Under the pieces are notes generated by a model that saw nothing but the letters and a program-made list of their open reading frames with translations, made no database searches and was not told the DNA's origin. Positions 11,293-20,281 of a stretch of DNA of 64,000 bases are shown here, one piece after another; position 1 is the stretch's first letter; every line of letters begins with the position of its first letter. The DNA comes from Anaerolineae bacterium (GTDB lineage Bacteria; Chloroflexota; Anaerolineae; Aggregatilineales; UBA3940). The stretch spans positions 1 through 64,000 of the forward strand of contig JAFGOY010000005.1 of the NCBI GenBank assembly GCA_016926255.1, given 5' to 3'. A program made the translations under genes and the position numbers.

Positions 11293-12594
11293 CTACTCCG
11301 ATTCGATTTCAGGAGTGGTCAGCACATCGACCGGCACAGGGGTCGGCTGTGAGCAGTAATCAAAGCCTTCCTGAACAGCATCGAGGATGCGTTCGTCTTC
11401 TTCCGCTCGCCGCTGGGCTTCTTCCAGGAAACGGATCGCGGTGCTGCACTGCCCCTGGTAAGCGTAAGACAACCCAAGCTGATAGTACAGGTCGTCGCTT
11501 TCTTCCTGAAGCTCAAGAGCCTTCTCCAAAGCGACGGAAGCCCCGGTGTAGTCCATCAGGTAGTAACGCAGCGTACCGATCCGGAGCCAGGGGCGGCCAT
11601 AGGCCGGATCGAGTTCGACCGACCGTTCGTAGTATTCAAGGGCCGTACTCGGATCGCCGAGATAAGTCTCGTAGGTTACACCCAGTTCGAAGGGGACGAT
11701 CACACTGCTCGGGGCAAGCACCTGGGCCTCGAATAACTGGTCAAGGGCTTCATCATAACGCCCCAGAACACGATAGATACGGGCCAGCGAAACGCGGATG
11801 AACGGTAACCTGGAATGCAGCTGGACGGCCATTTCATATTCGGCGGCAGATTCTTCGTAGTTCCCCAGACTTTCGAGCACATAGCCATAATCGCGCCGGA
11901 TGTCGAAGCTCTCCGGTTCCTGTTCCACAGCGTATTCAATCGCTTCCAACGCCTGATCCCAGCGATCCAGGTCGACCAGCGCCTCGGCATAATAGGACTG
12001 GGCGATGGCATAATTCGGATCGACGTCGATGGCCTGCAATATCGTCGATGAAGCCTGGTCAGCGCGGCCCTGCCAGTCATAGATTTTACCCATAATGGCA
12101 TAACCAGCCGGATCGAACGGATCGGACAACACCGCATTGTTGGCCGCTTCCAACGCCAGGTCAAGGGTGCCCACCCGTTCATCTCCATACTGCATCGCCG
12201 ATTCAAAGATCAACAGCCGGGCGATCTGAGAATAATAAGGAGCCGGGTCGGTGGTAAGTTCAGCCGCCGTTTGATAGTGCTCAACGGCGACATCCAGATT
12301 GCCGTCCAGATAAGCCTGTTCAGCTTCGGCAACAATCTCTTCGAAGGAGGGCCCTGGGGTATTCGTCTCTTCGATGGCGACCTCGGTATCCTCGGCGGAC
12401 CGCTCGAATTGAGGTATCCAACCGATTACCGTATCCAGGTTGCGATAGGCCCAGATGCCAAACCCAATCACGGCCAGGTAAAAAATGATCCGGAAGGGAT
12501 CGTTACGCGGCCCGCGATTGGGATCAGGGGGGCGATAGCTCGCATAACTGCGCCGCCGGGTTCGACGCCGCCGATCTTTTAACGATATACCCAA
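11293..12594 (-). CDS. Membrane-anchored TPR protein
   Basis: A 433-residue protein with a very basic N-terminus (RRRRTRRR), one membrane segment at about residues 33-50 and a large outside domain of tandem TPR units (about 90-410), recognisable from repeated patterns such as YYAEALVDLDRWDQALEAIE and YERSVELDPAYGRPWLRIG. A TTG start is chosen because AGGAGAATCCGGT precedes it. It probably acts as a scaffold on the outer face of the membrane. The gene directly upstream (12722) encodes a similar protein with the same plan, so the two look like a tandem duplication. No enzyme motif is visible. Confidence 0.85.
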   Translation of the reverse strand: MGISLKDRRRRTRRRSYASYRPPDPNRGPRNDPFRIIFYLAVIGFGIWAYRNLDTVIGWIPQFERSAEDTEVAIEETNTPGPSFEEIVAEAEQAYLDGNLDVAVEHYQTAAELTTDPAPYYSQIARLLIFESAMQYGDERVGTLDLALEAANNAVLSDPFDPAGYAIMGKIYDWQGRADQASSTILQAIDVDPNYAIAQSYYAEALVDLDRWDQALEAIEYAVEQEPESFDIRRDYGYVLESLGNYEESAAEYEMAVQLHSRLPFIRVSLARIYRVLGRYDEALDQLFEAQVLAPSSVIVPFELGVTYETYLGDPSTALEYYERSVELDPAYGRPWLRIGTLRYYLMDYTGASVALEKALELQEESDDLYYQLGLSYAYQGQCSTAIRFLEEAQRRAEEDERILDAVQEGFDYCSQPTPVPVDVLTTPEIESE

Positions 12595-12721: not shown

Positions 12722-14173
12722 CTATTCCTGAATGCCCTCGACTGAGGTTTCGTCATCACCATCGACTCCTTCACCGCCTGGTTCCTCGCCGGTGGTATCG
12801 CCGGGGCGTTCCAGCAGCACGGTCGGTTCTTCGTAACCGGCAGGGAACTCGTAGGCAATCGTCGGGGGAGTGTTGGCATAGTCACGGCAGAGCACAAACA
12901 CGCTCAGGATATTAGTCAAAGCAACCGGCTCATCAAGGCGGCGATCTTCATAAACGTCGAGCGCCTCAAATGCCCTGGGCACAGCTATATCACATAAATC
13001 GAGATAATAATAGTCCGAGGCAGTGACCAGGTACGCTTCGAGCGGCACATCGACATCGTTGGCGATGTCCCAGGCGATCAACTCCTCGTAGGTGGCAATT
13101 GCATCTTCGTAGTTCCGGCGGGTGTGATAGACGTTCCCCAGACGCAGCCAGGCCGGGGCATAGATTTCGTCGGGCAGGTCGCCCGAAGGATACGTATACC
13201 CCGCAGCCTCAATCTCCTCGAAGGTGTACTGCGGGCAGTCCTCACAAACCAGGCTGACCGCGCGCTCCAGGTTGATCTGGGCAGCTTCATCCTCACGGAC
13301 TTCGAAGTAAGTGCGCCCTAACTCGACATAGGTGCGCGGATCTTCAGGTATGCGCATGATGATCTGCTGGTAGGTCTCGACCGACTTTTCAAACATTTCC
13401 ATGGAGCCACTGGCCGCTGACGCTCCCCGGTAGTTGCGGGCCAGCCCATACCACAAATCGAGCAGGTTGGGTTGAAGTGCCAGCGCCTGTTCATACTGCT
13501 GGATCGCGCCGCCGTAGTCGCCGTAGGATTCGAGTACGTAGGCATAATTGCGGCGGGCATCCACGTTGAACGGGTCGATCTCGATAGCGAGTTCGGCTTC
13601 CTCACGCGCCTGCCGGAGCTGCCCCAGGTCGGTATAAGCCTCTGATAGATAGGCATGAGCATACGCATAATTCGAATCGAGTTCCAGCGCATGGAGCGCC
13701 TCAACCGCCGCCTGGTCATAATCTCCCATCCAGTCAAGCGTCCGAGCCTTCGCTGCATAGCCACGCGGGTCTTCCGGCGCAAGCAGGATCATCTGGTCTT
13801 CAATGCCCAGTGCCTCTTCAAGATTATCTACATCCTCGGTCAGGGTCAGCAGGCGGGCCAGTTCGAACAGAATTTGTAAATCCTCCGGGGACAACTCAAG
13901 CGCCTGCTGGTAATACACGACGGCCTGCTCCAGTTCGCCATTATAATAGGCAGCCTCGGCCTGGGTTATATAATGGTCGATGGAGGGTGTCGGAGTCGGC
14001 TCAGGGCCGATCTTCGCCAGCACCGCCGGTTGGATCGTGTCCATCCGGAAGAAAACGAAGACCGCCGCAGCCAGCACCAGCACATATAGAATGATCAGTA
14101 TGACCGGGTAGCGCCGTTTACGCTTCCCGAACCGCAGATTACCTTCTCCGAGGGGGCGTCGCTTGATATACAT
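12722..14173 (-). CDS. Membrane-anchored TPR protein, tandem paralogue
   Basis: A 483-residue protein: basic N-terminus (FGKRKRRYP), one membrane segment at about residues 22-42, a short Pro/Thr linker (PEPTPTPS), then TPR repeats over about 68-440 and an acidic Gly/Glu-rich tail. The repeats align with those of the downstream gene (ARRNYAYVLESYGDYGGAI here against IRRDYGYVLESLGNYEESA there), which supports duplication. A likely role is an extracytoplasmic protein-binding scaffold; the partner is unknown. An AGGAG lies rather far from the ATG. The gene reads away from the ABC operon that begins at 14510. Confidence 0.85.
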   Translation of the reverse strand: MYIKRRPLGEGNLRFGKRKRRYPVILIILYVLVLAAAVFVFFRMDTIQPAVLAKIGPEPTPTPSIDHYITQAEAAYYNGELEQAVVYYQQALELSPEDLQILFELARLLTLTEDVDNLEEALGIEDQMILLAPEDPRGYAAKARTLDWMGDYDQAAVEALHALELDSNYAYAHAYLSEAYTDLGQLRQAREEAELAIEIDPFNVDARRNYAYVLESYGDYGGAIQQYEQALALQPNLLDLWYGLARNYRGASAASGSMEMFEKSVETYQQIIMRIPEDPRTYVELGRTYFEVREDEAAQINLERAVSLVCEDCPQYTFEEIEAAGYTYPSGDLPDEIYAPAWLRLGNVYHTRRNYEDAIATYEELIAWDIANDVDVPLEAYLVTASDYYYLDLCDIAVPRAFEALDVYEDRRLDEPVALTNILSVFVLCRDYANTPPTIAYEFPAGYEEPTVLLERPGDTTGEEPGGEGVDGDDETSVEGIQE

Positions 14174-14509
14174 GGTTGGTACCGGAGTTTCTCCTAATCA
14201 TATTCGCGTCGGGATCATACCGTTCTAAACAGAGACGTGTCAAGGCGACAGCCGCACCCTCACCCTATGACCAGGCCACGCTTCCCGAAATGTTAGCTTC
14301 CTGTTAGCTCCCTTGACAATCGAACCGTTACAGGTGTATCATCACCCGGCATTGAGATAGCGTGTATCTCTAAAGCAGCACCGTGAGATGACGCTTTTTC
14401 TTTGCGAGGTAAGAGATGCTTTCTCTTAACTGTTTGTTTATCCGCAGAGTTATCCTTCACGCACTAACAACCAACACTTTTCAGTGCGAAGACTAGAGGG
14501 AGAAGCAGT
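14174..14509. other. 336-base divergent intergenic region
   Basis: This separates the - strand TPR genes from the + strand ABC operon. It holds a good + strand promoter (14313-14342, listed separately) and a small GAGATA/TATCTC hairpin just downstream. The long leader of about 160 bases before the ATG at 14510 has no gene that I can support. Confidence 0.5.
14313..14342 (+). promoter_or_regulatory. Promoter of the gliding-type ABC operon
   Basis: TTGACA at 14313-14318, an 18-base spacer and TATCAT at 14337-14342, the latter preceded by TG. The orientation and place fit transcription of the genes from 14510 to 19351. Confidence 0.6.
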
Positions 14510-15454
14510 ATGATACAGGTTGAAGGACTGACGAAGTACTACGGTAACTTCAAAGCCATCGACAGCCTGTCCTTTTACATTGATGCGGGTGAAGTGGTCG
14601 GTTTTCTCGGCCCCAACGGTGCCGGAAAAACCACGACGATGCGTATCCTGACAGGCTTTATGCCCCCCAACGAGGGCACAGCCACCATTGCCGGGTACGA
14701 CGTTCTCGACCAGCCGCTCGAAGCACGTCAAAGGGTAGGTTATCTGCCGGAATCGGTGCCGCTATATAAGGAAATGACCGTCTGGCAGTACGTCGATTAT
14801 GTCGCCAAGCTCTACAATATGCGCAATCCCATTCGCGCCAACCGCGTTGACGAGGTGCTGGATCAGGTCGGCATGATCGATCGTGCCGACAGTTTGATCA
14901 GCAGCCTCTCAAAAGGTATGCGCCAGCGAGTTGGTCTGGCACAGGCACTGGTTCACGAGCCGGATGTGCTGGTTCTCGACGAGCCGACGATCGGGCTTGA
15001 CCCCGGACAGGTTCGCGAGTTCCGCGAGTTGATCCAGCAGGTTGGCAAAGAACATACCGTGCTGCTCAGCACCCACATCCTCTCGGAAGTCGAGCAGGTG
15101 TGTGACCGGGTGCTGATCATCCACAACGGCCAGATCGTGGCCGAAGACCGGCCCGATGCACTGTCGGCCCGGCTGCAAGGCTCGCATCGCTTCAAGGTGA
15201 AGGTCGGAAATGCCAAACCAGAAGCCATCGCCGAAGTGATCGGCGGGCTACCCGGCGTGATCAATGTCACCTCCACCGACGACGGCGTAGAAGTGCTGTC
15301 CGAGGAGGAACAGGACACGCGCCCGGCAGTCGCCGCAGCCATCGTCGGCAAAAAGTGGGATTTACTCGAACTGCGCCCGCTGGATATGTCGCTGGAGGAA
15401 ATATTCCTTGAGCTGACCACCAACGATCGCCAGACTTACGAGGAGGAGGGTTAA
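14510..15454 (+). CDS. ABC transporter ATP-binding protein (GldA-like)
   Basis: A 314-residue ATPase that should power the ABC-2 permease encoded next to it. Walker A GPNGAGKTT is near residue 37, the signature LSKGMRQRVGLAQAL near 130, Walker B VLVLDEPTIGLDP near 152, and the His switch STHILSEV near 185. The C-terminal 90 residues form the extra domain usual in GldA/NatA-type proteins. A strong GAGGGAGAAGCAGT ribosome site precedes the ATG. The next gene begins 4 bases after the stop, so translation is coupled. The exported substrate is unknown. Confidence 0.93.
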   Translation: MIQVEGLTKYYGNFKAIDSLSFYIDAGEVVGFLGPNGAGKTTTMRILTGFMPPNEGTATIAGYDVLDQPLEARQRVGYLPESVPLYKEMTVWQYVDYVAKLYNMRNPIRANRVDEVLDQVGMIDRADSLISSLSKGMRQRVGLAQALVHEPDVLVLDEPTIGLDPGQVREFRELIQQVGKEHTVLLSTHILSEVEQVCDRVLIIHNGQIVAEDRPDALSARLQGSHRFKVKVGNAKPEAIAEVIGGLPGVINVTSTDDGVEVLSEEEQDTRPAVAAAIVGKKWDLLELRPLDMSLEEIFLELTTNDRQTYEEEG

Positions 15455-15458
15455 AGCG

Positions 15459-16220
15459 ATGCAGTTTTTTAAAGTAATCGGTCGCTCACTCCGATCAATC
15501 GGGATTGTCTTCAGCCACGAGTTCAATCTGTTCTTCACGTCACCGATTGTTTATCTAATCGGGTCGGTCTGGCTGTTCCTGGCCGGAGGGTTCTTTGCGC
15601 TTTCGCTGAGCGCAATAAACACCGGGCAGTACGAACCTGATATGCTCGGTATGTTCAGCCCGATGGTCTTCCTGATGATCTTCATGGCCCCAGCGCTGAC
15701 CATGCGACTGGTCGCCGAGGAGTACCGGAACGGCACAAACGAACTGCTCTACACCGCCCCGGTGCGCGACTGGGAAGTGATTTTCGCCAAATGGCTGGCA
15801 GTATGGGCGGTCTTCAGCGTGTTCATGCTGATCTCGTTTGTCTACCCGTTGATTTTGTTTTCACGCGGGAACCCCGACCCAGGGCTGATCATCACGGGGT
15901 ACCTGGGGTTGTGGCTGATGGCTGGCGCAACACTGGCGCTGGGCGTATTTGCCTCATCGCTCACCCAGTATCAACTCGTCGCGTTCTTCGTCACGATGGG
16001 CACACTGCTTGTCCTGTGGCTGGCCCAGCAGCTTACCTATATCATCACCAGCCCGAAGATCACCCCGGTGCTGGCTGAAATATCGCTGGTCAGTCACTAC
16101 CAGAACTTAGTCAGCCGGGCAATCATCGACCCCATCGACGTAGGCTATTTCGTTGGCATAATCACCGTGTTTCTTTTCCTGGCAACGCAAATGCTCAGCA
16201 CGAGGAGGTGGAGCTCGTGA
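15459..16220 (+). CDS. ABC-2 type permease (GldF-like)
   Basis: A 253-residue integral membrane permease with six hydrophobic segments between about residues 20 and 250. The section MRLVAEEYRNGTNELLYTAPV after the second helix is the typical cytosolic coupling region of this family (seen also in NosY and GldF). A GAGGAGGAGGG ribosome site lies before the ATG, inside the end of the ATPase gene. Its stop overlaps the start of the GldG-like gene in GTGA, so the three proteins are made together and probably form one complex. Confidence 0.92.
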   Translation: MQFFKVIGRSLRSIGIVFSHEFNLFFTSPIVYLIGSVWLFLAGGFFALSLSAINTGQYEPDMLGMFSPMVFLMIFMAPALTMRLVAEEYRNGTNELLYTAPVRDWEVIFAKWLAVWAVFSVFMLISFVYPLILFSRGNPDPGLIITGYLGLWLMAGATLALGVFASSLTQYQLVAFFVTMGTLLVLWLAQQLTYIITSPKITPVLAEISLVSHYQNLVSRAIIDPIDVGYFVGIITVFLFLATQMLSTRRWSS

Positions 16221-18715
16221 ACGAGCAAAACAACATCCAAATTGACCGTAACGTACTTCGCTGGGTATCCCTCGGCATCGGCCTGCTGGCCCTGCTGGCT
16301 ATGCTGGTCGCCTGGATTGCCGAAGGAAAATTCAGCACCGCAAGTTGGATTTCGCTGGGTGTGAGCGTCGCCGGTATCGCCGGTTTCATTCTGGTCGATG
16401 CCCGCGCCTTCGTAAGCGCGATCACCGGGCGGCAGGGGCTGTTTGGCCTGACCACCGCTTTCATGACCATTTTCTTCCTTGCGGTGATGGTCGCCCTGTA
16501 CCTGCTGCTCAAGCAGGCCAATATCGAACCGTGGGACGTGAGCGAATCGCAGGAATACACGCTCTCCGATACGACGACGCAGCTCCTTTCCGAACTGGAC
16601 GGGCCGGTGCAGGTTCTGGCTTTTTATGCACCGAGCGACTACGGTAAAGAAGAAGCCAAACTGCGACTCGACCAGTACGAGCGTGAGAGCGATGGCAAAC
16701 TGACCGTCGATTTTATCGATCCCGATGCTGACCCGGCCCTGGCCGGTAAATACGAGGTCGAGAGTTCGGGCACCATCGTCTTCGAGCAAGGTGACCAGAC
16801 ATCCAAAGCCGACAGCGTCACAGAGAACGAACTGACCGGCGCGCTGGCCCGCGTGATGCTCGGCGACGAACGCCATCTTTATGCCATCGTTGGGCACGGC
16901 GAACGCACCTTTACCGGTTATGATACGACCGGCTACTCTACCATCAACCGGCACCTGGAAAACTTCAACATCATCACCGACGAGATCAACCTGCTGGAAA
17001 CCGGCGAAATCCCGGCAGATGCCGACATGGTCCTGATTGCCGGGCCGACCGCGACGTTTACCGATACCGAAATAGCGATCCTTTCCGCGTACCTGGACGA
17101 AGGTGGCGCGGCGATGATCCTCAGCGAACCCGGTACGGGTGGTGGGACGATGGGCAACGGCGTCATGGGCGTGGCTTTCAGCCCGGATGGTGACACCATC
17201 GCCACCGGCGGAGCCGACGGCACCATCCGCTTGTGGGATGCGGCTAACGGCGATGAAATCGGCGTCATTCGCGGGCATACCGCCGGATTGACCGACGTAG
17301 CCTTCTCGCCCGATGGCAGCCGGATCGTCTCAACCAGCATCGACAACACCGTCCGCGTCTGGGACGTGGAAAGCGGCGAACAACTGGCCGTTCTGGAAGG
17401 CGAGACAGCCGCCGTTCGCCGGGCAACCTTTTCGCCCGACGGGAACCTGATCGCCAGCGTGGGCGAAAATCAGGCAGTCAACATCTGGGATGCCGACACC
17501 TACCAGCCAATGGCCTATTCTCCGCTGGCAGTGCCGGTTCCACTGATGACACTGGCCTTCTCACCCGACAGTGCCCATATCGCCGTTGGCGGTGGTTCCA
17601 GTACCGAAGGACCGATCTACGTGTGGAATACCGAGACCGGCGAAGTGGAAATCTCGGAGCCGCTGCACTCGAGCTTTGTGTTCAGCATGGCCTTCTCACC
17701 CGACGGGCAGACGTTAAAAAGCGCCGCCGTCGATGGAACGATTGGCAGCCTTGACATAGAGAGCGGCGAAGGCAGCGCCACACCTCGCTACGCCGATACA
17801 GGAACATCGGCGATAGCGATCGCCAAGGACGGCACGATAGCCTATGCCCTGGTCGATGCAACCGTCCACCTGCAAACGGATACCGGCGCACAACCGGATA
17901 AGGATATCGTTCTTTCCGGGCACACTGACGTCATCTGGGACCTGGCTTTCTCCCCCGATGGGAGCAGGGTAGTTTCAGTAGGTCGCGACAATATCATCGA
18001 CGTCTGGAACGTCGACGAGGGAACACTCGACTATATGATTTCGGGGCATTCCGCCGTCGATCCGCTGCTCCAATATCTTGAAAACAACTGGAAAATCCGG
18101 CTGAACGACGACATCGTCATCGACCTGGGAACGGCCCAGCAGTTCGACGAGTTCACACCAATCGTCTATACATACGATGAGTTCTCGCCGATCACAGCGC
18201 CGATCCTCAACCAGTACACCTTCTTCCCCGACGCGCGAAGCATCACCCGGCTAGACACCAGTGCTTCAAGCCTGAGCCTCATCGCGCTGGCCCTGACTTC
18301 TTCCTCATCCAGCGGGGTAACTTCCTGGGGTGAAACGACCGATCCGTACACCGTCGGCACCTACGGTTTCGACGAAGCCGACATCCCCGGCCCGGTCACA
18401 CTGGCTGTCAGCGCGGAAGATCTTGAGAGCGGGGCGCGGCTGGTCGTCGTTGGCGACTCAGACTTTGTTTCAAATGCCATGCTCGAATACTCGAACTTCG
18501 ACAACTCGCAGTTCTTCATCAAGGCCGTCGAGTGGTTGACTGAATCGGAAGACAGCATCGAACTGCCGCCGGTGAACTTCGAAGATCGCCGGTTTGATCC
18601 CCAGTTCGGCCTGGTACAGCTCCGGCTGGTGCAGATCAGCGCGGCCTGCCTGATGCCGATTGCGTTCATTGTCGCCGGGTTGGGCGTCTGGATCACCCGC
18701 CGCAGCAGACGGTAG
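16217..18715 (+). CDS. GldG-like ABC auxiliary protein with inserted WD40 propeller
   Basis: An 832-residue protein. The GTG start at 16217 is chosen because AGGAGGTG sits 6 bases before it and the start overlaps the previous stop (GTGA). Two or three membrane segments lie within about residues 10-100, followed by the outside GldG/ABC_transp_aux domain (VLAFYAPSDYG, FIDPDADP, YAIVGHGERTF, MVLIAGPTATF). At about residue 312, right after the MILSEP strand, a block of seven WD40 units (313-611; repeated VAFSPDG and LWD/VWD motifs) interrupts the domain, which resumes with DPLLQYLENNWKI and DDIVIDLG and ends in one membrane helix. Ordinary family members lack the propeller. Function: partner of the permease, probably substrate or peptidoglycan-side interactions. 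Confidence 0.9.
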   Translation: MNEQNNIQIDRNVLRWVSLGIGLLALLAMLVAWIAEGKFSTASWISLGVSVAGIAGFILVDARAFVSAITGRQGLFGLTTAFMTIFFLAVMVALYLLLKQANIEPWDVSESQEYTLSDTTTQLLSELDGPVQVLAFYAPSDYGKEEAKLRLDQYERESDGKLTVDFIDPDADPALAGKYEVESSGTIVFEQGDQTSKADSVTENELTGALARVMLGDERHLYAIVGHGERTFTGYDTTGYSTINRHLENFNIITDEINLLETGEIPADADMVLIAGPTATFTDTEIAILSAYLDEGGAAMILSEPGTGGGTMGNGVMGVAFSPDGDTIATGGADGTIRLWDAANGDEIGVIRGHTAGLTDVAFSPDGSRIVSTSIDNTVRVWDVESGEQLAVLEGETAAVRRATFSPDGNLIASVGENQAVNIWDADTYQPMAYSPLAVPVPLMTLAFSPDSAHIAVGGGSSTEGPIYVWNTETGEVEISEPLHSSFVFSMAFSPDGQTLKSAAVDGTIGSLDIESGEGSATPRYADTGTSAIAIAKDGTIAYALVDATVHLQTDTGAQPDKDIVLSGHTDVIWDLAFSPDGSRVVSVGRDNIIDVWNVDEGTLDYMISGHSAVDPLLQYLENNWKIRLNDDIVIDLGTAQQFDEFTPIVYTYDEFSPITAPILNQYTFFPDARSITRLDTSASSLSLIALALTSSSSSGVTSWGETTDPYTVGTYGFDEADIPGPVTLAVSAEDLESGARLVVVGDSDFVSNAMLEYSNFDNSQFFIKAVEWLTESEDSIELPPVNFEDRRFDPQFGLVQLRLVQISAACLMPIAFIVAGLGVWITRRSRR

Positions 18716-18730
18716 GAGGAAGAGACGAAC

Positions 18731-19351
18731 ATGCAAACACGCAATCGTCTGATCAGCGGGCTGGTACTCCTGGGAGTGGCCGCTGCATTGATCACCACCT
18801 TCGTCCTGCTCGGCAAAAGGGAAGAAGAACCCGAAGTCGACGAAACCGCTGAGGCGGAGACGGTCGACCTGTTCCCCGACGCAGTGTTCGGGGTCGTCGA
18901 AGCGTTCTCGGTAACAGACAACGAAACCGGGGACACCTTCGCGGCGAGTATCGACGAAGACAGTTTCGAGTGGGTGATCGACGAGATGCCCACCGAACCC
19001 GACCCGGCACTGGTCGTTGACAGCAACCAGATCACCAGTTCGCTGTTCAGCCTGCCCAGCCTGCAATCGAGCCGCGTCCTGAGCGAAATCGAGGCGCTGG
19101 CCCCCTTCGGGCTGGAAGAGGCTCACTACACGATCACCTTCAGGGTGACCTCAGGCGGCGAACATACCATCTATGTCGGGTCACAAAACCCGACCGGTAC
19201 CGGGTACTATGTTCGCCTCACCGAATCGGTTGACCTGACCCAGGAAGTCTACCTGGTCGATACGTACAGCCTCGACAGCGTGATCTGGTTCCTGGAGAAT
19301 CCACCGCTGATCGAGCCGACGCCGGAGGAGGAACAGCCCGAAGGGGCCTGA
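18731..19351 (+). CDS. DUF4340-type membrane-anchored protein
   Basis: A 206-residue protein with one N-terminal membrane segment (about residues 7-27) and an outside domain typical of the DUF4340 family, which is often encoded beside GldG-like genes. Visible family traits are VVDSNQITSSLFSLPSLQSS and the segment FGLEEAHYTITFRV followed by YVGSQNPTGTGYYVRL. It is the last gene of the operon, 15 bases after the GldG-like gene with a GTAGGAGGAAGAG ribosome site, and a strong terminator follows at 19381. Molecular role unknown; the context makes it part of the same ABC system. Confidence 0.8.
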   Translation: MQTRNRLISGLVLLGVAAALITTFVLLGKREEEPEVDETAEAETVDLFPDAVFGVVEAFSVTDNETGDTFAASIDEDSFEWVIDEMPTEPDPALVVDSNQITSSLFSLPSLQSSRVLSEIEALAPFGLEEAHYTITFRVTSGGEHTIYVGSQNPTGTGYYVRLTESVDLTQEVYLVDTYSLDSVIWFLENPPLIEPTPEEEQPEGA

Positions 19352-19380: not shown

Positions 19381-19418
19381 AAAGTGGATGCCGGCAGCGG
19401 TATCCACTTTTGTTTTTC
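19381..19418 (+). terminator. Intrinsic terminator of the ABC operon
   Basis: A 13-bp stem (AAAGTGGATGCCG / CGGTATCCACTTT, one G-U pair) with loop GCAG, followed by TGTTTTTCT, 29 bases after the stop at 19351. This is a textbook rho-independent terminator. Confidence 0.88.
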
Positions 19419-19495: not shown

Positions 19496-20281
19496 ATGAA
19501 AGGTAAAGCACTCAACCGCCTGATACTCCAGATAGTCGCGTATATCGGCATCGCCCTGATTTTGGGAGGGGTGATCCTGCTGTACGTGCCTGACCAGGTC
19601 TTCATGCCCCCTGGCGCGTTGATCGGATTCGGGCTGGCGGCGCTGGGAATCAATATCGTTCTGGGCGGTGACCTGGTGATCGGGCCAACGCCCCGCACAT
19701 TTTCGGCGAAGGGACAGGTGGTACGCGGCTATCTCGACGTTTCCGCCGGGCCAGCCGACCTGGACATCAACGGCGGCACGAAAAGTCGTATCGCCTCGGT
19801 GACACACGGGCCGCTCGGCAAACCCAACTTCGTCGTCGAGGAGGGAATCGCCCGGCTGCGGCTCCATAACAACGTTCTCATCCCCAATATCACCCAGTGG
19901 CGGGCCAACCTCGCCTCGAACATATTGTGGGACATCTACGCCCGCAGTTCGCTGGGCGAACTGATGCTCGACCTGACCCAGCTCAGGCTGGAAAAAGTGA
20001 TCGCCGCGACCTCCTGGGGCCATTTGCAGATCATCTGCCCCAAACGCGGCTACGCACAGATCGACCTCAAGACAACGGCAGGGCTGATCGAAGTCACCAT
20101 CCCCGACGGCGTCGGCGCACACGTCACCATCGAAAGCGGCACGCTGGCTAACATCGACATCCAAAACGAAAGACTGCTGGCCGAAGACCAGCAGACGTTT
20201 ACCTCGCTCGATTTTGAAACCGCAGCGGCAACGGTCGAGATTCGCATCAAGGCCGATGCCGGAGACGTCCACATTAAATAG
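19496..20281 (+). CDS. Membrane protein with a LiaF/toast-rack-like beta domain
   Basis: A 261-residue protein with two N-terminal hydrophobic segments (about 8-30 and 38-60) followed by a repetitive beta-rich domain of about 190 residues, with runs such as GYLDVSAGPADLDINGG and GHLQIICPKRGYAQIDLKTTAGLIEVTIPDG that recall the stacked beta-helix of LiaF/DUF2154 or DUF4097 proteins. The match is by pattern only. Such domains face the outside or the membrane interface and often belong to envelope-stress circuits. It stands alone: a terminator precedes it and min genes converge on it. Confidence 0.6.
   Translation: MKGKALNRLILQIVAYIGIALILGGVILLYVPDQVFMPPGALIGFGLAALGINIVLGGDLVIGPTPRTFSAKGQVVRGYLDVSAGPADLDINGGTKSRIASVTHGPLGKPNFVVEEGIARLRLHNNVLIPNITQWRANLASNILWDIYARSSLGELMLDLTQLRLEKVIAATSWGHLQIICPKRGYAQIDLKTTAGLIEVTIPDGVGAHVTIESGTLANIDIQNERLLAEDQQTFTSLDFETAAATVEIRIKADAGDVHIK

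Follow-up and report, generated by a model that had tools for sequence, protein, structure and literature searches.

GldG-like domains are placed extracytoplasmically. Subunits of this type, whose role in the transporter is poorly understood, were common in the phylum sampled in this study. In Flavobacterium, GldF and GldG are required for the membrane localization of GldA and for gliding (PMC9127263). A WD40 domain is found in PorE of the type 9 secretion system, together with TPR, CRD, and OmpA_C domains (PMC9127263). For IFT52, which contains a GIFT domain, the TPR proteins IFT88 and IFT70 were reported to wrap its central disordered part (PMC10191852). We analyzed the first 64,000 nucleotides of contig JAFGOY010000005.1 from an Anaerolineae bacterium (assembly GCA_016926255.1), hereafter called the window, in which a GldG-like ABC auxiliary protein carries a WD40 propeller within its GIFT domain. 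Both modules are well known. However, no report of WD40 combined with GldG was found in the open-licence literature, and neither the exact insertion into the GIFT loop nor its family-wide retention was reported in the literature searched. Apart from this one domain insertion, which one GTDB-level family has retained throughout, the operon is an ordinary ATPase-permease-GldG-DUF4340 operon.

The features of the locus are listed in Table 1. The reading frame of the GldG-like gene was open already from a GTG at 16208 and continued as a single frame without stops to 18715, and an AGGAGG at 16203–16208, with an 8-nt spacer, supports the start at GTG 16217. Residues are counted from GTG 16208 throughout, so that the WD40 region given as residues 313–611 in the initial annotation becomes 316–614.

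Table 1. Positions in the window of the GldG-WD40 gene, its parts, and the neighboring genes and signals.
Feature	Positions	Strand	Remarks
Second TPR protein	11293..12594	-	N-terminal hydrophobic stretch, under the helix threshold used
TPR protein, divergent neighbor	12722..14173	-	one N-terminal membrane helix
Divergent promoter-like site before TPR genes	14214..14243	-	TTGACA-18-TATGAT; 11/12 consensus; consensus scan
Promoter-like site before operon	14313..14342	+	TTGACA-18-TATCAT; 11/12 consensus; consensus scan
GldA-like ABC ATPase	14510..15454	+
GldF-like ABC-2 permease	15459..16220	+
GldG-like ABC auxiliary membrane protein with WD40 insert	16217..18715	+	832 aa from GTG 16217
Three N-terminal transmembrane helices	16250..16528	+	residues about 15-107; hydropathy
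Thioredoxin-like (DUF7088-type) ectodomain part, Cys-free	16580..16867	+	thioredoxin matches E 0.005
GIFT/ABC_transp_aux domain, first part	16877..17137	+	residues 224-310 = PF09822 profile 4-84; ends ...AAMILSEP
Seven-bladed WD40 propeller insert	17156..18049	+	residues 317-614, about 298 residues
Blade 1	17156..17278	+
Blade 2	17279..17404	+
Blade 3	17405..17536	+
Blade 4	17537..17671	+
Blade 5	17672..17794	+
Blade 6, most degenerate	17795..17923	+
Blade 7	17924..18049	+
GIFT/ABC_transp_aux domain, second part	18050..18523	+	nt 18086-18523 = PF09822 profile 109-287; start near DPLLQYLENNWKI
C-terminal transmembrane helix, then RRSRR	18605..18700	+	hydropathy
DUF4340 protein	18731..19351	+	one N-terminal membrane helix
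Terminator-like hairpin closing the four-gene operon	19381..19410	+	consensus scan
LiaF-like protein	19496-20281	+	PF09922 below cut-off; two N-terminal hydrophobic stretches

The WD40 profile PF00400 matched the protein with 149.6 bits against a cut-off of 27 (E 9e-45), and a chance match was thus excluded. PF09822 (ABC_transp_aux) scored 65.7 bits, above its gathering score of 34.7, placing the protein in this family, and its match was split in two by the insert. In contrast, the WD40-less relative L035 matched PF09822 in one piece (profile 1–288). WD40-less relatives gave uninterrupted PF09822 matches, together with DUF7088 and IFT52_GIFT matches; PF23355 in L035 reached 27.0 bits, slightly below the cut-off of 27.2. 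In the 15 WD40-less homologues that were aligned, the joint is spanned by a loop of 7–22 residues, whereas about 310 aa lie there in the insert-bearing proteins; the borders of the insert are thus clear at the sequence level. A profile built from 16 WD40-less relatives matched the crystal structure of IFT52 (5fmr) with an E value of 6.7e-10, the alignment crossing the insertion loop, and the IFT52 GIFT domain has only a short loop where the protein of the window has its insert. By homology, including this alignment to a solved GIFT domain, the two flanks probably form one domain. In the whole-protein AlphaFold2 model, the GldG halves mostly had pLDDT values of 20–40; the model was poor outside the propeller because it was made from a single sequence with no alignment supplied. 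The initial annotation had put seven blades precisely inside the GldG domain, and the split PF09822 match, the short loop of WD40-less homologues, and the IFT52 alignment bear this out. Its coordinates and blade count were also correct; seven blades lie between the two PF09822 pieces.

An assembly chimera or frame artefact could in principle have fused a WD40 gene to a GldG gene, and a check for a join at 17150 or 18060 had been proposed. Such a join was excluded because the insert recurs at this position in seven further genomes, each time in the genome's own contigs. The left joint was visible in all seven, and the right joint wherever the contig extends that far, which it does not in G001 and for one of the two G002 copies, where the genes are cut at contig ends. 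Moreover, the frame is free of stops and GC3 is similar in the insert (0.70) and in its flanks (0.72 and 0.77). No point was found in favor of a chimera, the seven independent homologues with the same insertion refute it, and we regard its probability as negligible. The similar GC3 is also consistent with an old event.

When the insert was modeled alone (residues 313–616; AlphaFold2, single sequence), a closed ring of seven blades with 27 strands was predicted with a pLDDT of 81 and a pTM of 0.85. Structural comparison of the insert gave a Z score of 38.4 to 2ymu (284 residues, 2.1 Å) and of 38.2 over 284 residues to the seven-bladed 7bie, and Foldseek with the whole-protein model agreed on a WD40 propeller. 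The isolated model and the Z scores of 38 to seven-bladed chains thus support the earlier view that the insert is a closed propeller able to fold by itself. Both ends of the insert are placed at the junction of blades 7 and 1 in the isolated model. The first strand of the insert is the inner one of blade 1, and its last strand is the outer one of blade 7. The ring would therefore be opened at a single inter-blade loop, with the two connections exiting from the same face.

The whole-protein model placed the N-terminal helices at residues 14–38, 44–72, and 78–103. DUF7088 was matched in WD40-bearing and WD40-less relatives alike. The ectodomain is strongly acidic and has no Cys, Cys 814 being the only one of the protein. 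The arrangement of three plus one helices given by hydropathy, the basic C-terminal end, and the Cys-free ectodomain suggest that the ectodomain and propeller lie outside the membrane, where the initial annotation had put the propeller. Because the topology was derived from hydropathy only, an inverted orientation may be considered, in which the propeller would be an ordinary WD40 scaffold in the cytoplasm. However, the odd number of N-terminal helices, the basic RRSRR end, the acidic and Cys-free ectodomain, and the general extracytoplasmic placement of GldG-like domains make it very improbable.

The distribution of the insert was then considered. All seven other genomes of the same GTDB-level family in which the gene was found carry the insert, with the same joint, the same blade order, and 42–51% identity; the ninth family genome, which is 80% complete, gave no match to the gene. 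On the other hand, WD40 blades were absent from all 86 homologues inspected outside the family, which represent other families of the order, class, and phylum. These came from overlapping samples within one phylum, drawn at the level of the order (151 genomes), the class (249), and the phylum (301), and included the longest frames, of which those near 1000 aa were read in part only. The statement in the initial annotation that known GldG proteins lack a propeller therefore holds among the other GldG-like proteins sampled. No independent gain was seen in the longest ORFs read from other families (about 665–1092 aa), and the sampled ORFs of about 1000 aa (L112 and L114–L117) were blade-free, with their extra length upstream or elsewhere. 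In some class members (L114–L117), the nearest matches were ORFs of about 970–1090 aa in which the GldG-like match was split and the N-terminus carried a long extension; these are perhaps permease-GldG fusions. A phylogenetic tree built from the GldG part grouped the insert-bearing proteins in one clade (support 100/99). Because all family genes carry the insert, none of the 86 outsiders does, and the bearers form one clade, the most parsimonious explanation is that the insert was gained once, in the common ancestor of the family, and then retained.

Only this one GldG-type gene was found in the genome of the window, so that the sole such subunit of the operon carries the propeller. Two similar partial GldG-WD40 copies (L098 and L099, on G002:C181 and G002:C98) were observed on separate contigs of one genome and represent paralogues or mixed strains. 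A search for related loci among genome contigs gave a WD40-only match (L063) and nothing else, and the plasmid search gave no match. The genome is rich in WD40 (97 matches), including kinase-WD40 and membrane-anchored WD40 proteins (L148–L154). Own-genome WD40 proteins aligned to the insert mostly as overlapping pieces of 2–4 blades; we name no donor because these alignments were partial and out of register.

Given how abundant WD40 is in this genome, a propeller that landed in a membrane protein would not necessarily have a specialized role. A WD40 module could have been copied from one of these many genes into a permissive loop, one that varies in length elsewhere too, and have no specific function there. 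However, every family member that has the gene has retained the insert, at 42–51% identity and in conserved blade order, and no loss was seen. The host parts have diverged further than the propeller: identity to the protein of the window was 38–45% in the N-terminal ectodomain and 35–44% in the C part. A functionless passenger is therefore unlikely. Across species, blade n best matched blade n in 328/364 comparisons, and the unrotated blade order scored well above every rotation for all seven species, indicating that the insert was already a diversified seven-blade ring in the ancestor of the family and has been maintained since. Invariant positions made up 14% of the propeller, slightly fewer than in the GldG ectodomain (19%), and no conserved binding face was identified on the propeller.

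The gene order of the operon (ATPase, ABC-2 permease, GldG-WD40, and DUF4340) is conserved in the family, and a LiaF-like gene and minD/minC follow in the family contigs that reach that far. A LiaF-like relative was also observed about 2–3 kb past GldG in several other families of the order. The 18 regions examined from other families have the ATPase-permease-GldG order, often with DUF4340, and contain no WD40 gene nearby; hence none of them shows a fusion precursor, that is, a free-standing WD40 gene beside a WD40-less homologue. Four family contigs extend far enough to show the other side of the operon, and in each of them a divergently transcribed tandem pair of TPR genes adjoins it. None of the 18 regions from other families has such a pair beside the operon; L144 has one TPR match that is weak and distant. 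In the window, the TPR genes are separated from the ABC operon by two strong divergent promoter-like sites (14214–14342).

We propose that the propeller serves as an extracytoplasmic docking platform, by which an external partner is docked to the ABC machine, a reading to which we give an even chance. A role in binding protein, as also suggested in the initial annotation, would follow from the WD40 fold. In this model, the GldG-like protein would sit on the neighboring ATPase and ABC-2 permease of its operon, and its GIFT domain would lie outside the membrane. As an added docking face, the propeller would then tie a glycan, or a protein of the envelope or extracellular space, to the ABC machine, and ATP-driven movement of the GldG-like subunit could act on the captured partner. 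The propeller may instead work inside the complex and have no external ligand. In that case it would stabilize or gate the transporter, serving as a lid, spacer, or dimer contact packed against its own GIFT domain, the permease, or the DUF4340 protein. Insertion within a domain anchors the propeller at two points, as suits an intramolecular role; the position of both ends at the blade 7/1 junction would turn one face towards the host domain; and the operon with DUF4340 is conserved. However, homologous operons are maintained without a propeller in other families, and we hold this intra-complex role to be possible but not probable.

For the docking platform, the two divergent TPR proteins would be the first candidates for the partner. 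This candidacy comes from gene juxtaposition only, and related tandem TPR genes were also found elsewhere in the genomes of other families of the order. It is conceivable, though the chance is small, that the GldG-borne propeller binds both neighboring TPR proteins in an ABC-driven extracytoplasmic GIFT-WD40-TPR assembly. If true, this would be a bacterial combination of modules that also build eukaryotic intraflagellar-transport complexes. A partner captured by the isolated propeller should reveal what such ABC machines work on. Moreover, a 300-residue disc built into one precise loop marks this loop as exposed and permissive. The insertion is also a clear example, bracketed by phylogeny, of an entire propeller that entered another domain and persisted throughout a bacterial family.

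The locus was compared with known systems. Flavobacterium GldG, GldA, and GldF likewise comprise an ABC ATPase, an ABC-2 permease, and an auxiliary protein of the same domain family. However, the scores of the three subunits were far below the curated cut-offs (53.8 bits against 389.85 for TIGR03521, GldG; 316 against 402.6 for TIGR03522, GldA; 128.5 against 288.5 for TIGR03518, GldF), and they are therefore not GldA, GldF, and GldG equivalogs. The term gliding-type exporter used in the initial annotation is thus unsupported. Searches for GldL and SprA in the same genome gave no match, and the controls were likewise silent. The TIGR03521 family model has no WD40, and the protein of the window matches it only partially. 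At most, the Flavobacterium comparison points to a role of the auxiliary protein in assembling the complex.

Also comparable are uncharacterized GldG-like/ABC_transp_aux proteins encoded within the same class and phylum (for example, L035, L040, and L017), which share the membrane helices, DUF7088, PF09822, and the ATPase-permease-GldG order, often with DUF4340, but have the 7–22 residue loop instead of the propeller. The IFT52 GIFT domain (5fmr, 5fms) is homologous over the insertion loop, but is eukaryotic and soluble and has no inserted propeller. Thermomonospora PkwA (5yzv) and the highly repetitive propeller 2ymu have the same seven-blade WD40 fold; unlike that of the window's protein, their propellers are not inserted inside another domain of a transporter subunit. 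PorE likewise has an envelope-located propeller and belongs to a gliding/secretion machine, but its domains are arranged in tandem with no insertion, and the remainder of the protein is unrelated.
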